Origin: Halapricum desulfuricans
GTDB lineage: Archaea > Halobacteriota > Halobacteria > Halobacteriales > Haloarculaceae
Direction of reading: 5' to 3'
Assembly (NCBI RefSeq): GCF_017094505.1
Contig: NZ_CP064787.1
Span: forward strand, 1,054,001-1,118,000
Length of the DNA: 64,000 bases
The notes under the pieces are model-generated. The model did no database searches, had not been told where the DNA came from, and saw only the letters and a program-made list of their open reading frames with translations. Of the stretch, positions 38,611 to 53,783 are shown in pieces. Numbering within the stretch: position 1 is the stretch's first letter; the number at the start of each line of letters is the position of its first letter. The position numbers and the translations under genes are program-made.

Positions 38611-41190
38611 TCATCCGGTCCGGTAGTTCTCCAGCAGTCGCTCGACCTGTGCGTCGAGATCGGTCAGGGCCGTCCCGACGTCGGTGTCGCGGGCGTCGAG
38701 ATACGCTTCCTCGACGAGCGTCCGAACTGTATCGAAGGGGCCGATCCGGGCTCCGTTGGTCGCCGGACTGTCCGAACTCGCGAGCAACTCCTCGAGGGCG
38801 GTCTCGAAGTGGGGGTTCTCCCGGAACCAGCCGTCGGCGCGCAGCGATTCGACCGCGCCGTGATTGATCGGGAAGTAGCCGGTCTCGCGGTGCCAGCGGG
38901 CCTGCTGGGCGGGCCGGGCCAGCCACGCCAGGAACTCGCCGGCGAGCAGCTGGCGCTCGCGCGACACCGATTCGGGCACCCACAGCGAGGCCCCGCCGAC
39001 GACCAGCCCGCTGCGCTCGTCGGCCACCGGGAGCGGGGTCGTTCCCAGCTCGAAGCCGGCCTCCCGCGCGCCGTCTTCGATCCCGGAAAGCGACGAACTC
39101 GACGCGACGAGCATCGCCGCCGTCCCGTCGAGAAACGCCGATTTGGCCGCTCCGCGCGCCTCGATGCCGGGATTGTGGTACAGCCCGTCGAGTTCGAGGT
39201 CGCGCCACCACGAGAAGAGTTCGCGGCCCGCGTCGCTGTCGAAATGCGACTCTGTGGCGTCGCCGTCCCGGCCGTTGCGCCGGTCCACGAGCGGCTGACC
39301 CGCCTGTGCGAACCACTGCTCGACGTACCAGGCGTAGTTGGCGAACGTGATCCCGTGATCTGCGACGCCCGCGTCGACGAGATCGCTCGCAGCCGTCCGG
39401 ACGGCGTCGAACGTCTCGGGCGGACGGTCGGGGTCCAGCCCGGCGCGCTCGAAGGCCGTGCGGTTGTAACAGAGCACCGGCGTCGAGGAGTTAAAGGGCA
39501 GCGAGTACAACTGGCGATCCGTCGTGTAGTACGACCGGACGGGATCGAGCAGCTCGGTTTCGTCGAAGTCGGCCGGCAACACCGATTCGACGGGGACGAA
39601 CCCGCCGCTGTCCATCGCTCGCTTGGTCCCGATCTCGAATATCTGGGCGATCGCCGGCGGCCGACCGTTCTCGACGGCATTGAGCGTCGCATCGAGCGTC
39701 CCGCGGTAGCTCCCCTTTGCGGTCAGCTCGATCGAGACGTCCCCGTCGTGTTCATCCTCGAACTCGCGAGCCAGCGATTCCAGCAGGACGCCCTTCTGGC
39801 CGCTCATCGCGTGCCACATCTCGATCGTCGTGCTGTCGGCCTCAGCTGCGGCTCGCGTCGTCTCGAAGTCGTCGAGCGATTCGGTCAGCGTCTCGGTCCG
39901 GTCGGCGAGCGTGTTCGTCGCTGTCTGGACCTCGGTGAGGACGCTGGTCTGGTCGCGGGCGGCCGCGGCGACCTCGTCGGCGGTGTCCGCGGTCTCCTCG
40001 CTGATATCGCCGACCTCCTCGGCCATGACGGCCACCTGCTGGGTGGACTCGGCCTGGGACTCGGTCGCGTTGCTGATCTCGCCGACCCGGCCGGAGACCT
40101 CCTCGACGTCCTCGACGATGTCCTCCAGGGCCGTCAGCGCCTCGTCGATCGTCTCCCGGCCGGAACCGACCCGATCGCGCGTCTCGCGCATGTCGGCGGC
40201 GGCCTCGTCGGCCTCCTCGCGCACCGCGTCGATCGCGCCCTCGATGTCGTCCAGCGCCGACTGCGTCTCCTCTGCGAGGCTCTTGACCTCGTCGGCGACG
40301 ACCGCGAAGCCGGCTCCCTCCTCGCCGGCGCGGGCCGCCTCGATCGAGGCGTTCAGCGCGAGGATGTTCGTCTGTTCGGCGATGTCGTCGATCACCTCGA
40401 CGATCGATTCGATGTCCTCGACCGAGTCCGCCAGGCTCTCGACGCTCTCGAGGGTCGTCTCGGTCCTCGTCTCGATCCGTTCGAGTTCGTCGATCGCGGT
40501 CGTCGCGGCCTCGCCACCGGAACGGGCGCGCTCCGCGGAGGCTTCCGCCGCACTGGCGACCTCTTCGGCCGAGGAGGCGACCTCCTCGACCGTCGCCGAG
40601 AGGTCCTCGACTTCGCCGGCGACGTCCTCGATGCGGTCGTGCTGACGGTCGGCGTCGGTCGCGATGTCGCGGATCGACTCGTTGACCTCTCGGCTTTTCG
40701 TCCGGACGGTCTCGGCCGTCGAGGCGACCTGTTCGGTCGCGCCGCTGACCTGCTGGCTGAACTCCTCGACGCGCCTGATGGACGCCGACCACTCGCCGAT
40801 CAGTTCGTTGCACGCGGTCTCGAGTTCTTGTGTCGCCGGGTCGTCGGCAGCGATCTCAGCCCGCACGGTCAGGTCGCCGTCGACCGCCCGCGCCATCGTG
40901 TCGGTCGCCGTCGTGATCGCCGTCTCCAGCCGATCGGCCCGCTCCCGTGCCTGATCGCGCTCGTCCCGGAGCTCATCGCGCTCCTCCCGCAGCTCGCCCA
41001 CCCGCTCGCGCAGACGCGCGAGTTCGTCCGGATCACAGTCCGGTTCGGTCTCCCCCTCCACCGATGCTGATTGTGTCACTGACGCTGTCGATGGGTCGTC
41101 TCCGTCCTCGTCGTCGACATCTGACGTGCTCTTCGCACCGGACGCGTCGTCCGTCATGCCGAGGAGGAGACTGGTGAGGAATCTTGTCAT
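38611..41190 (-). CDS. Chemoreceptor signalling domain fused to UgpB-like substrate-binding domain, predicted cytoplasmic
   Basis: An 859-residue fusion. Residues 1-50 are acidic and disordered; 51-95 form a coiled coil. A HAMP-like segment (about 85-145) leads into a methyl-accepting chemotaxis domain whose hairpin tip is AEQTNILALNASIEAARAGE at 271-290, then GAGFAVVADEVKSLAEE. From residue 455 comes a complete family 1 solute-binding protein: TIEMWHAMSGQKGVLLESLA, KGSYRGTLDATLNAVENGRP and AIAQIFEIGTKRAMDSGG match the UgpB (sn-glycerol-3-phosphate binding) pattern. I see no signal peptide, lipobox or membrane helix anywhere, so both domains should be cytoplasmic. The ATG at 41190 fits a TATA box near 41238; an upstream TTG is less likely. 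Confidence 0.87.
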   Translation of the reverse strand: MTRFLTSLLLGMTDDASGAKSTSDVDDEDGDDPSTASVTQSASVEGETEPDCDPDELARLRERVGELREERDELRDERDQARERADRLETAITTATDTMARAVDGDLTVRAEIAADDPATQELETACNELIGEWSASIRRVEEFSQQVSGATEQVASTAETVRTKSREVNESIRDIATDADRQHDRIEDVAGEVEDLSATVEEVASSAEEVASAAEASAERARSGGEAATTAIDELERIETRTETTLESVESLADSVEDIESIVEVIDDIAEQTNILALNASIEAARAGEEGAGFAVVADEVKSLAEETQSALDDIEGAIDAVREEADEAAADMRETRDRVGSGRETIDEALTALEDIVEDVEEVSGRVGEISNATESQAESTQQVAVMAEEVGDISEETADTADEVAAAARDQTSVLTEVQTATNTLADRTETLTESLDDFETTRAAAEADSTTIEMWHAMSGQKGVLLESLAREFEDEHDGDVSIELTAKGSYRGTLDATLNAVENGRPPAIAQIFEIGTKRAMDSGGFVPVESVLPADFDETELLDPVRSYYTTDRQLYSLPFNSSTPVLCYNRTAFERAGLDPDRPPETFDAVRTAASDLVDAGVADHGITFANYAWYVEQWFAQAGQPLVDRRNGRDGDATESHFDSDAGRELFSWWRDLELDGLYHNPGIEARGAAKSAFLDGTAAMLVASSSSLSGIEDGAREAGFELGTTPLPVADERSGLVVGGASLWVPESVSRERQLLAGEFLAWLARPAQQARWHRETGYFPINHGAVESLRADGWFRENPHFETALEELLASSDSPATNGARIGPFDTVRTLVEEAYLDARDTDVGTALTDLDAQVERLLENYRTG

Positions 41191-41230
41191 GCGCTCTTTG
41201 TGAATAGCACTTTGCACCCTCTTGTACAAT

Positions 41231-41243
41231 AAGTATATTTATT
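41231..41243 (-). promoter_or_regulatory. TATA box of the receptor-fusion gene
   Basis: On the minus strand AATAAATATACTT, centred about 48 nt upstream of the ATG at 41190. It would give a leader of roughly 20 nt and supports that start. Confidence 0.5.
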
Positions 41244-45295: not shown

Positions 45296-46747
45296 CTAGC
45301 CCGCTTCGTCCGTGGTCGCGTCCCCGACGACGCCCTCGCGCTCGTCCTCGATGACGCCCGCCTGCCAGCGACCCAGCCGGAACCAGGCCACCGCCACCAG
45401 AAACGACAGGAGCCCGCCGACCGAGAAGGCGATCCAGATACCCTCGACGCCGATTCCGAGCGTCTCGACGGTGTGACCGGTCGGGAGCGCGATCGTGAGC
45501 GAGAACGCCAGGACGATTGCCACGGGAACCCGAAATACCCATCGGGAGAGCAGCGAGAGCACCATCGCGACTTTCGTCTGGCCGGCTCCGCGGAACGCGC
45601 CCTGGATGACCATCGTCCCGCCGAAGAAGGCCCAGAACGGAGCGATAACGTACAGGAATGTCGCGCCTTCGCTGACCGTGGCGGGGTCGTCGAGGAACGC
45701 CCGGATCAGCCACTCGGGGACGAGCAGACAGATCCCCGCCGCGACGCCCAGAAGCGCCATCGTGCCGCCGGTAGCGACCCAGGTCACGCGGCCGGCCCGG
45801 TCGGGCGTCTCCGCGCCGAGGTTCTGGCCGACACCGGTCGCGGTGGCCTGTCCGACCGCGCCCGCGACCGACCACGTCACCGACATCAGGCGGACGCCGA
45901 CGCCGTAGGCGGCGATGGCGGCGTCGCCGAAGGGCGTGACGAACGCCGCCATCACGACCGCGGCGAAGCTCCGGGCCCAGCCGTCCAGCGTCCCCGGGTA
46001 GCCGATATCGATCAGCTTTCGGAGAATACGGGGGTCCGGACGGAGGTCGCCCGCGTGGAGTTTGACGCCGAACCCGCCGCGCAGGAGTATTCCGATTCCA
46101 GCGGCAGTCGCGAGCCCCCGGGAGACGAACGTCGCCCAGCCGGCACCCCGTGTTCCCATCGCCGGGAACGGTCCCCATCCGAGGATGAGAACGGGGTCGA
46201 GGACGACGTTTACACCCGCCGATAGCAGGACCAGCCACATGGCCGTCTTGGTGTCACCCGCGCCCTGCAGGGACGAGCGGAAGGCAAAGAACAGGAACGT
46301 CAGTGGCAGCGCGAGGAAGATGACTTCGATATACGCCAGCGCCTCGGTGAACACCTGTCCGTCGGCACCCATCAGCGAGAGCAGGTCTACCCTGAACGTC
46401 CATCCGAGCGCGGCCAGAGCGAGCCCGACGACGAGCGTCAGCAGCACCGTCTGGGCGACGACGCGGTCGGCCCGGCGCTCGTCGCCGGCCCCGACGTGCT
46501 GTGAGACCAGCGCGATCGTCGCGGCGGTGATCCCGATCGACGTCGAGACGAACATCCACGACAGCGGGAACATCAGCGCGACCGCGGCGACGGCCTCGCG
46601 ACCCACCCGGCCGACCCAGAACATATCGGCGAGATTGTACACCGTCTGGAGGAGGTTCCCGAGCACGAGCGGCCAGGCTAGATGGAGCAGTTTCGGCGGG
46701 ATCGCGCCCGTCGTCATGTCGACGCCGCGTCGTTCCGGGGAAGCCAC
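45296..46747 (-). CDS. MATE-family multidrug/Na+-type efflux transporter
   Basis: MATE proteins export cationic or hydrophobic compounds in exchange for Na+ or H+. The 483-residue protein has twelve predicted membrane helices. LHLAWPLVLGNLLQTVYNLA and DMFWVGRVGREAVAAVAL begin the first half. GMGTRGAGWATFVSRGLATA-type segments and LDGWARSFAAVVMAAFVTPF open the second. The acidic, disordered C-terminus is typical of haloarchaeal membrane proteins. An in-frame ATG at 46717 (MTTGAIPPK) is an alternative start. It lies within the alpha-glucan block but on the strand of malQ, 55 nt downstream; a functional link is not evident. Confidence 0.9.
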   Translation of the reverse strand: MASPERRGVDMTTGAIPPKLLHLAWPLVLGNLLQTVYNLADMFWVGRVGREAVAAVALMFPLSWMFVSTSIGITAATIALVSQHVGAGDERRADRVVAQTVLLTLVVGLALAALGWTFRVDLLSLMGADGQVFTEALAYIEVIFLALPLTFLFFAFRSSLQGAGDTKTAMWLVLLSAGVNVVLDPVLILGWGPFPAMGTRGAGWATFVSRGLATAAGIGILLRGGFGVKLHAGDLRPDPRILRKLIDIGYPGTLDGWARSFAAVVMAAFVTPFGDAAIAAYGVGVRLMSVTWSVAGAVGQATATGVGQNLGAETPDRAGRVTWVATGGTMALLGVAAGICLLVPEWLIRAFLDDPATVSEGATFLYVIAPFWAFFGGTMVIQGAFRGAGQTKVAMVLSLLSRWVFRVPVAIVLAFSLTIALPTGHTVETLGIGVEGIWIAFSVGGLLSFLVAVAWFRLGRWQAGVIEDEREGVVGDATTDEAG

Positions 46748-49661: not shown

Positions 49662-52600
49662 ATGCCATCGACCCAGTCGACGCTCGGCGAGACGGGGATA
49701 GCCGAGGAACTGGCCGAAAGCCAGCGCCAGATCTCCATCGCCGAGTTCTTCGAGAAGAACAAGCACATGCTCGGGTTCGACTCGGGTGCCCGGGCGCTGG
49801 TCACGGCCGTCAAAGAAGGGGTCGACAACAGCCTCGACGCCTGCGAAGAAGCCGATATCTTCCCCGATATCTACGTCGAAATCGAGGACCTCGGCGACTA
49901 CTACCGGCTCGTCATCGAGGACAACGGCCCCGGGATCACCCGCGAGCAGGTGCCGAAGGTCTTCGGGAAACTGCTGTACGGTTCGCGGTTCCACAAGCGC
50001 GAGCAGTCGTTGACGCCAGACCAGCGAGTGCTCGTCAGGCGGAACGACACGGTCAAGACAATCCCGATCAGGGTCCTGTGCGACGCCTACCTTCCGGAAG
50101 ACGGGGAAGCAACACGACCGATCCCCGACGACATCGAAGTACCGTCGTTCAATCGTGAAACCCACGAGATGTCCTGGGAGTCGGTCACGCACGCCATTCG
50201 ACACGAAACCGACGAGGCCACGTACGAGATAACGACCGAGAAAGGTCGGACTGTGGAAGTGACCGGCAACCACAGCCTGTTTTCGGTGACGAGTGCGGGC
50301 GAGACGAAGGAGGTCGAGGCCAGCGACTTACAGCCAGGTGACACGGTTCTCACACCCCAGACGCTTCCGTCGTTCGAGGAGTCGGTCGAGTCGGTGAACC
50401 TGCTGGAGTACATCACGCCGGACCAACTCGACGGTCGGCGAGTGTACGTATACGGCTTCGACCGGGAGACACTCGAACGACTAAAAACTGGAGACAAGGT
50501 CCGAAAGAAACCGTCGCCGGACAGCGATCGAAAGCGGACCTTCTATCGGTACGATGGCGTCGAGGTTCTCAAAGACAGTCTCGAAACGAACTACCTCGAA
50601 AAGGGATACCTACCCGCAGAGACGGTGATCGAACTCGGCTGGGAAGCGAAAGCCGCCGACTGCGAGTTCAAGACCTACCAGGTCGGTGGCGAAGAGACGA
50701 CGATACCGGTGTCCGTCCCCATCGACCGGTCGTTCATGCGTCTGCTGGGGTACTACGTCGCAGAAGGACACGTCGACGACCGGCAGGTCGGGTTCACCTT
50801 CGGTACCCACGAGGAGGAACTGATAGCGGAGACCGAGTCGGCCGTCGCTACTGTGGGAGGGACCACGACGACTGTCGATCGCGAGCGCAACTCGACGCGA
50901 GTGAAAGCGTTCGGGTCACCGCTCTCGATGTTTCTCGAAACCGTCTGTGGCGAGAGGGCAGAGAACAAACGGATTCCCGAGTTCGTGTTCAGCACGGACC
51001 GCGAACACCAGCAGGAGTTCATCACGGCACTGTACCAGGGAGACGGCTCCGACTCGCATCCGAGCAACGAACTGTCCCATACGACGACCAGCGAGACGCT
51101 CGCACGGCAGCTATCGGTACTGTGGAACATGCAAGGCGTGCTCGCGAGTACGGAGATTGCGACGGACGTCAACGGATACAGCGACGACCCCAGCACGCAA
51201 TACAGGACGAAAGTCTACGGCGAGGACGTGAACCTGACGGACGTATTCAGCGAGCGCCGCCCGCCGGGCGAGCAGCAGTACAAACGCGTTCCCGTCTCGC
51301 TGCTCTCGGACCACCAAGTGGGACACGTCGGCCACGAGACTGTTCCGGATACCATCCCAGGGTTGTTGCTCGGCGTTGGAATCGGCTCGAACCTCGAACA
51401 CGCCGAGGTCTACCGGTCGTTGATCGAACGGGCACTGGATGGAGAGTACGTCGAGAAGCCCCGGTACGTGCACAATCTCAAAGAGATGGGGCTGCTCGAC
51501 GGCGACCACCAGCCGACTGAAACGCTCGAAGACCTGTGGGAGACGATTCACGAACTCCAGGGGATCACCGAGACGGACCTGTGTCTACTCCCGGTGAAAG
51601 ACGTCGAACAGACTGAACCACCCGAATACGTCTACGACATCTCGGTTCCAGGAACGACGGGCTACGACGAAAATTTCGTCGTGGTCAACGAGGGGGCACT
51701 CTCGGTGAAAAACAGCCGCGGTCAGCAGGGGATAGGGATCTCCGCAGCGGTCCTCTACTCCCAGTTGACGAGCGGCAAGCCCGCCAAGATCACCTCCCGA
51801 ACGAAAGGGTCGAGCGAGGCGCACTACTTCGAACTCATCATCGATACTGACACCAACGAACCGGAGATCGACGTCGACGAGACGACCTCGTGGGACCGGC
51901 CGCACGGCACGCGGATCGAGCTGGAACTGGAGGCGAACATGCGCGCGCGCCAGAGCCTCCACGAGTATATCGAACAGACAGCGGTCGTCAACCCGCACGC
52001 CCGCATCGAGTTCGACGAGCCGAACCTCGAGGCACCGCTGAAGTTCGAGCGCGCGGACGACGCCCAGCTGCCGGCCGAAACCGAGGAGATCCGTCCGCAT
52101 CCCCACGGCGTCGAACTCGGGACGCTGTTGAAGATGCTCGAGGCGACCGATTCCTACTCCGTGTCCGGGTTCCTGCAGGAAGAGTTCACGCGGGTCGGTC
52201 AGAAGACCGCCGACACCGTTCTCGACCGATTTCGCGATCGACACTTCGGTCGCGAGATGGCCTGGCGACCGCCGCAGGTCCACGAGGACAGCGACGTCGA
52301 GACCGCCGTCCGGGCCGCGGTCGCGAACAAGGGCAAGCAGGCAACCAGAGCTTTCGCGGCGGCAGTGGCCGAGTCGGTCGGTGACCGGGACCGGGTAGCG
52401 AACCACGAACTCCGGGCAATCGTCGACCGCGAGGCCGAGGCCGTCGAGGCAGACTTCGAGACCACGTTTGGCTCGACAGTCCGGGAGAAAGCCACTGAGG
52501 CGGCGTGGGCGCAGATACTGGGCGGTGACGGTGACCGCGAGGAGACGCTGGCGTCGGACCTCTATCCGCTGATCGACGAGGCGACCAGCACTCGCAAGGA

Positions 52601-53783
52601 CGACGCGACGCTCCGGGGCGTCGCGGAGCGACTGGCGACGAAGTTCACCGGCGGCGACGACCGGCGCCACCGTCTCACGCGCGACGAACTCACAGACTAC
52701 GTTGACCGGGCCGCCGACGCGACCGAGGAATACGACGACGCGACCTTCGGCGAGACCGCGCGCGAGAACGTCGTCGAAGCCGTCTGGGGCGTGATGGTGA
52801 CCGTGCCGGACGACCTGCCGACGGTCACGACGGTCGCCGACGACCGCGACGCGGCGTCCGAACTGCTGGAGGCGATGCGAGCGACCGATATCATGTCGCC
52901 GCCGACGGGGTGTCTCGCGCCGATCACGGACGACCTCGTTCTCTCGGGTCTGCAAAAGGAGTTCGACGCGGACTTCTACGCCGCTGCGACCCGCGACGCC
53001 TCGGTCCACGGCGGCGATCCGTTCGTCGTCGAGGCGGGAATTGCCTACGGCGGTGAACTCGAAGACAGCAGTAGCGTCGACGTGATGCGCTTTGCCAACC
53101 GCGTCCCGCTGGTCTACCAGCGCGGCGCGTGTGCGACGACCGACGTGGTCAAGGACATCAACTGGCGCAACTACGGGCTCGACCAGCCCGGCGGCAGCGG
53201 CGTCCCGAACGGCCCCGCGGTCGTGATGATACACGTGGCCTCGACGAACGTCCCGTTCACCAGCGAGTCCAAGGACGCGGTCGCGAACGTCCCCGAGATC
53301 GAAAGCGAGATCGAACTCGCCGTCCGGGAGGCGGCCCGCGATCTCAAAAGCTACCTCAAGAAGCGCCGATCGATGCGCAAACGCCGCGAAAAGCAGGACA
53401 AGCTGGCGACGATCCTACCCGAGATGGCAGAGAAACTCGCCTCGGTCACCGGTCACGAAGAGCCGGACATAGACGAGGCGCTGGCCCGCATCATGAACAA
53501 CGTACTGGTCGAACGCGCGGTCGAGGACGGCACGGCGACGATCAGCGTCGAGAACAACTCCGATAGAAACGCAGACCTCGAAGTGACCGAGATTCTCGAT
53601 ACCGAACCCCGCGACGCGAACGGTGCGAACGTCGTCGAGATGGACGGCGAGTACTATCTGAAGTGGTCACCGACGGTGCGGAGCGGCGAGACGGAACGGC
53701 TCGAATACAGCATCGACGGCGACGCCGACAGCGAGATCGCGGTCGACGGAATCGACGACGAGAAACTCACGATCCAGTCATGA
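49662..53783 (+). CDS. top6B: DNA topoisomerase VI subunit B, with intein
   Basis: ATP-binding subunit of the A2B2 type IIB topoisomerase that relaxes and decatenates DNA. The precursor has 1,373 residues; removing the intein (residues 116-684) leaves 804. The GHKL ATPase domain shows [20 protein letters not shown] (Asn in GVDNSLDA), [20 protein letters not shown] and [12 protein letters not shown], joined after splicing to [18 protein letters not shown], the ATP lid. [14 protein letters not shown] and a switch-Lys region VRGKxG-like [20 protein letters not shown] follow, then a C-terminal Ig-like domain. The stop overlaps the start of top6A by ATGA. Confidence 0.96.
50007..51713 (+). other. 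Intein in topoisomerase VI B with LAGLIDADG (DOD) endonuclease domain
   Basis: A 569-residue protein-splicing element inserted in the ATP-lid motif SRGQQGIG. It starts with Ser ([20 protein letters not shown]) and includes the block B motif [13 protein letters not shown]. The two endonuclease motifs are [13 protein letters not shown] and [13 protein letters not shown], each with an acidic catalytic residue. It ends [16 protein letters not shown] and GALSVKN, then extein Ser. The C-terminal Asn is present but the penultimate residue is Lys rather than the usual His. Confidence 0.92.

Follow-up and report, generated by a model that had tools for sequence, protein, structure and literature searches.

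Layout of the receptor gene

The stretch of Halapricum desulfuricans DNA analysed here (the window: 64,000 nucleotides, positions 1,054,001 to 1,118,000 of contig NZ_CP064787.1) carries on its minus strand a gene in which a chemoreceptor signalling hairpin is followed by a UgpB-type solute-binding domain, both read in a single open frame with zero internal stops. Its features, in window coordinates, are the following.

38611–41190, minus strand: complete chemoreceptor–UgpB fusion gene, 859 aa, ATG start at 41190, stop at 38611
41230–41237, minus strand: TATA-like element AAATATACTTA, 47–40 bp before the ATG (upstream sequence read by eye)
41035–41190, minus strand: acidic N-terminus, residues 1–52, predicted disordered (AlphaFold2 pLDDT <50)
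40840–41031, minus strand: helix, then HAMP-like segment, residues 54–117, with near-invariant G105, D106 and L107
39874–40839, minus strand: methyl-accepting signalling hairpin, residues 118–439 (MCPsignal E 2e-46; antiparallel helices 118–288 and 293–439)
40282–40380, minus strand: hairpin tip AEQTNILALNASIEAARAGEEGAGFAVVADEVK, residues 271–303, predicted CheA/CheW contact
39832–39873, minus strand: short linker joining the hairpin and the binding domain, residues 440–453 (AlphaFold2 model)
38614–39831, minus strand: UgpB-type (CUT1/SBP_bac_8) solute-binding domain, residues 454–859 (UgpB profile E 3e-71)
38722–39708, minus strand: predicted ligand-contact residues Y495, E519, S569, N618, W621, S697, G733, Y772 and R823

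A first-pass annotation of the window, made by a model from the sequence alone, had described a methyl-accepting hairpin and then a complete binding domain in one intact frame, with the signalling domain first and the sensor last, and the profile searches agree with it. Pfam MCPsignal (PF00015) matches residues 228–387, SBP_bac_8 residues 473–797 (E 1e-38; SBP_bac_1, E 1e-28) and NCBIfam UgpB (PRK10974) residues 450–851 with 240 bits; as the latter lies below the equivalog cut-off of 411 bits, we call the domain UgpB-like and do not assign it UgpB identity. The motifs quoted by the annotation, WHAMSG, KGSYRGTLDA and QIFEIGTKRAMDSG, are all found in the translation. An alternative in-frame TTG is located 13 codons upstream of the ATG; the latter is favoured, since the TATA-like box directly precedes the TTG.

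An AlphaFold2 model, computed from an alignment of 32 family members, consists of a helix at 54–103, two very long hairpin helices and, from residue 454, a compact two-lobed domain with pLDDT mostly >90; its mean pLDDT of 80 and pTM of 0.53 make the relative placement of the domains unreliable. The first 100 residues are weakly conserved (mean identity 23%). Pfam HAMP is matched in 8 of 32 members of the fusion family and, given these scores and the nearly invariant G105-D106-L107, residues about 90–140 are probably a HAMP-like signal converter. The hairpin tip, placed at 271–303 already in the annotation, is near-invariant across the 32 fusions, the majority of its residues being identical in all, and together with the MCPsignal domain identifies the protein as a methyl-accepting chemotaxis protein (MCP). 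Hairpin length is nearly constant and the L435-to-W459 spacing varies only from 23 to 28 residues in the same 32 sequences, as would be expected if signalling depended on geometry. The binding domain matches PDB 4aq4 at E 4e-63, and its top Foldseek matches are E. coli UgpB (6x84; target-normalised TM 0.93, rmsd 1.6) and Phaeobacter UgpB, with dinucleotide- and glycerophosphocholine-binding proteins ranking after them.

Occurrence and probable single origin of the fusion

The same domain order was sought in other haloarchaea by searching the binding domain alone against 392 Halobacteriales genomes. The matches fall into two size classes, one made up of frames of some 800–1050 aa, present in about 61 genomes, and another of 450–550 aa. 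A hand count from the table puts the fusion in about 61 of the 392 genomes, in 15 genus groups and three families, which dismisses a single-genome oddity, and the 60 loci classified as fusions after fetching match that count. A maximum-likelihood tree of the domain groups the 62 fusions in a single clade (SH-aLRT 100) that excludes the stand-alone exported haloarchaeal UgpB lipoproteins, and the fusion therefore probably arose once; the tree comes from a quick search under one model, and its deeper branching order is tentative. The receptor's own genome contains no second homologue of the binding domain at E 1e-3, and the plasmid search gave only stand-alone binding proteins among the matches listed. 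In one relative (genome G233, locus L154, 8007–9592), the receptor sequence is broken into two frames, with glpK and glpABC intact next to it; this is either a pseudogene or a sequencing error.

Ligand site and gene neighbourhood

In UgpB, the phosphate is contacted by Tyr64, Ser143, Ser266 and Tyr342 and the hydroxyls by Glu88, Gly303 and Arg393, while Trp188 and Trp191 form a clamp (PMC12718374). Alignment to the Phaeobacter protein equates Y495 with Tyr64, E519 with Glu88, S569 with Ser143, W621 with Trp191, S697 with Ser266, G733 with Gly303, Y772 with Tyr342 and R823 with Arg393, N618 taking the place of Trp188. Eight of these nine glycerol-phosphate contact positions are identical to UgpB in 62/62 fusions; the Trp188 position is Asn in 51 of them, Thr in 11 and Trp in none. 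Invariant columns number 67 of 405, and the contact residues are enriched among them (hypergeometric P 3e-6, a figure that, like those for linkage and the Fisher test below, disregards part of the shared ancestry). Among exported haloarchaeal homologues, the Glu88 and Arg393 positions vary. Judged from this pattern, the ligand site of the fusions is under constraint and suited to glycerol phosphate. Loss of contact residues in the cleft, named by the annotation as evidence against its reading, is thus confined to one position. With one of the two clamp tryptophans replaced by Asn, exact specificity is nevertheless less certain: the clamp arises with specificity for sn-glycerol-1-phosphate (G1P) and sn-glycerol-3-phosphate (G3P) and is missing from relatives that bind glycerophosphocholine and dinucleotides (PMC12718374), and the changed residue may leave room for a larger ligand or alter the affinity.

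A second line of evidence comes from the gene surroundings. In Halapricum, the receptor gene stands beside genes for a phosphorylase, a GH13 enzyme and PGI, with GH77 malQ and TrmB farther off. The first-pass annotation had pointed to these neighbours, and they are present; their synteny with the window is, however, shared with three congeners only, making the genus-confined setting a poor guide to the ligand. Two further genes of the window may be recorded here: a MatE-family transporter gene (45296–46747, minus strand), located between those for the GH13 enzyme and malQ, and a Topoisomerase VI subunit B gene (49662–53783, plus strand; 1373 aa) interrupted by a LAGLIDADG-domain intein. In other genera, equivalog-level NCBIfam matches identify the neighbours as GlpA, GlpB, GlpC and GlpK. 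A glpK gene is found within about 10 kb of the receptor in 27 of the 60 fetched loci, representing seven of the 15 genus groups and several arrangements; in 20 loci, it starts 126–209 bp downstream of the receptor, with glpABC divergent upstream. In other members, genes for DhaK and PtsI are found near the receptor in addition to glpK. By a rough estimate, the chance of glpK occurring in any 18-kb stretch is well under 1%, and the linkage requires five changes on the domain tree. A TATA-like sequence often lies between the receptor stop and glpK, so that co-transcription of the two is not implied.

No glp linkage is seen in over half of the loci fetched, those of the Halorubrum-like group among them, and in H. 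desulfuricans itself the receptor stands next to genes of glycogen and maltodextrin metabolism, about 1.4 Mb away from glpK and glpABC. There, the latter are divergent and 244 bp apart (locus L205, 4723–10824; contig C1, about 2480722–2486823); in Haloarcula-like genomes, the receptor gene fills exactly this glpABC–glpK gap. By presence alone, glpK occurs in about 60 of the 61 fusion genomes versus about 82% of the remaining genomes (Fisher P 2e-4), which is weak evidence of association because most genomes have glpK and the lineages are related. One same-genus genome (G262, C10:46470–47999) carries a glpK with an in-frame TAG, by error or decay. Taken together, the glp linkage elsewhere gives strong independent support to the annotation's guess of glycerol-3-phosphate and, with the local setting confined to the genus, demotes a ligand deduced from the local neighbours (maltodextrin or glucose-1-phosphate).

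It is from these data that the strongest alternative arises, a cytoplasmic receptor for some other phosphate ligand: a glycerophosphodiester, sn-glycerol-1-phosphate or a sugar phosphate such as glucose-1-phosphate. The replacement of Trp188 by Asn or Thr in all fusions, the fold ranking that puts dinucleotide- and glycerophosphocholine-binding proteins next after UgpB and the phosphorylase, malQ and pgi genes of Halapricum all lean this way. Archaea make G1P for lipids, sn-glycerol-1-phosphate being the archaeal lipid precursor. UgpB in turn accepts both G1P and G3P, with no preference for either enantiomer (PMC12718374), and in combination the two facts make G1P a real alternative or additional ligand. 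Against a different phosphate compound speak the invariance of the glycerol-contacting Glu, Gly and Arg, a linkage in other genera to glpK and glpABC rather than to genes for diesterases or lipids, and the identity of the H. desulfuricans receptor with the glp-linked fusions at all nine mapped contact positions; on balance we regard it as rather unlikely. Still less probable is that the binding domain is a relic kept for dimerisation or scaffolding, in a receptor tuned to something else such as redox or energy state. Fusions can retain a fold without its ligand, and binding is here a prediction; yet the eight contacts have stayed invariant in all 62 fusions, whose identity falls to about 50%, a degree of conservation above that of the columns in general, and exported homologues vary at two of those very positions.

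Location, proposed signalling and known receptors

The annotation's statement that no signal peptide, lipobox or membrane helix is visible stands. The best 19-residue Kyte–Doolittle window of the receptor reaches only 1.12, within the binding domain, whereas a membrane helix should score about 1.6 or higher; the AlphaFold2 model shows no helix at the N-terminus, and the sequence has no Tat motif or lipobox. The receptor of H. desulfuricans is consequently predicted to be soluble and cytoplasmic, and an exported protein or lipoprotein is rejected for it. In the 80 residues preceding the binding domain, 0/60 fusions have a Tat motif or lipobox; stand-alone exported haloarchaeal UgpB homologues have a Tat motif in 17/20 cases and a lipobox in 17/20. 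Helix-like hydropathy windows are likewise absent from 57 of 60 relatives, and the three that exceed 1.6 do so at the extreme N-terminus. These three (loci L124, L130 and L148) begin with hydrophobic stretches (Kyte–Doolittle 1.8–2.4) followed by a GFFG-like motif, possibly a membrane anchor or a mis-called start, the start codon being uncertain in these frames; because of them, a lack of membrane contact may fail as a family-wide rule.

The three relatives, and the fact that well-described UgpB-family proteins are all extracytosolic (general knowledge; PMC9602780), could suggest an external sensor, with the whole protein, or its binding domain alone, leaving the cell by a non-classical route. 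We consider this very improbable for a receptor with no Tat motif, lipobox or helix, whose MCP tip must be cytoplasmic and is separated from the binding domain by no membrane segment. A gene-fusion or assembly artefact, including the sequencing frameshift that the annotation had raised against its own reading, can practically be dismissed: we found no point in its favour, and the same single frame is retained in three congeners (binding domain 84–96% identical) and 57 other genomes, about 61 independent assemblies in all, whose fusions form one clade.

We infer binding, ligand identity, location, attractant sign, signal path and taxis from these patterns, and on this basis the gene is likely to encode a soluble cytoplasmic chemoreceptor whose C-terminal UgpB-type clamshell binds intracellular glycerol phosphate, most likely G3P, with taxis toward glycerol as the outcome. 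Direct chemotactic sensing of an internal metabolite, as proposed from the first reading, is supported by the lack of an export signal, the kept contacts and the glp linkage. Glycerol would enter the cell and be converted by the glycerol kinase GlpK to G3P, which would close the clamshell located at the hairpin base. The linker, almost constant in length, would relay this closure to the C-terminal arm of the hairpin and from there to the CheA/CheW tip, with an effect on CheY phosphorylation and on the switching of the archaellum. In this way the cell would find its way toward glycerol by monitoring the first compound formed in its own glycerol breakdown, with sn-glycerol-1-phosphate or a close relative as an alternative or additional ligand. 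More generally, we give an even chance to the proposition that haloarchaeal glycerol taxis measures an internal phosphorylated product with a transporter-type domain that has been moved inward and fused to the receptor, so that the response would depend on glycerol kinase and not on external glycerol, and might extend to glycerol-1-phosphate.

Each half of such a design has a precedent. Car (Htr11) of Halobacterium salinarum, a cytoplasmic arginine transducer, is likewise a membrane-free haloarchaeal MCP reporting an internal metabolite, but its ligand is arginine, and the paper that describes it ascribes no UgpB-type domain to the protein (PMC3579733). The BasT/BasB and CosT/CosB systems of the same species likewise rely on a substrate-binding protein for MCP signalling; theirs is exported separately and acts on a transducer in the membrane (PMC3579733), whereas ours is part of a single fused frame, C-terminal and predicted to be inside; by analogy, the receptor would unite Car-like internal sensing and Bas/Cos-like use of a binding protein in one polypeptide. 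UgpB itself (E. coli 4aq4/6x84; Phaeobacter 9lff) is homologous over the whole domain, with the similarity of fold and contacts described above, but is the exported G3P/G1P-binding component of an ABC transporter and has Trp188; the receptor domain is predicted to be intracellular, lacks a signal peptide and has Asn at that position. The sensor of TlpD is a small zinc-binding C-terminal CZB domain. Like the fusion, TlpD and further cytosolic receptors of this layout are soluble and carry the sensor after the hairpin, but TlpD senses hypochlorous acid (PMC6715182) and has no binding-protein fold. PacP of Pectobacterium is a chemoreceptor whose ligands are glycerol-3-phosphate and further phosphorylated C3 compounds, and it has been described as the first that binds phosphorylated ligands exclusively; it is a transmembrane protein sensing external G3P with a periplasmic sCache domain, unlike our receptor in sensor fold and location (PMC12395807).

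In the literature searched, no description was found of the fusion or of haloarchaeal glycerol taxis. A 2022 census of archaeal receptors (PMC9680633) includes "SBP_bac" in its ligand-binding domains and recognises a class "cytoplasmic C", and the architecture may already be tabulated there. Solute-binding proteins are by definition treated as extracytosolic, and the fusion clade would place such a protein inside the cell, as the sensory part of a receptor, with a conserved gene context pointing to the likely ligand. Haloarchaea use glycerol as a major or preferred source of carbon, and Haloferax volcanii is reported to prefer it over glucose (PMC12366361); the fusion is proposed as a concrete molecular basis for taxis toward it. 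If true, it would be a clear example of metabolism-dependent taxis driven by one defined intermediate and would offer a genetically simple, one-protein model of how clamshell closure is converted to MCP signalling.

The signalling partners that this reading calls for have candidates in the same genome. In addition to glpK and glpABC, we found three matches to archaellins and four to the CheW domain, one of the four being in a 755-aa frame next to the archaellins, which fits CheA. Two other MCP matches of the genome (C1:1135697–1136773 and 848889–849830) contain one in-frame stop each.
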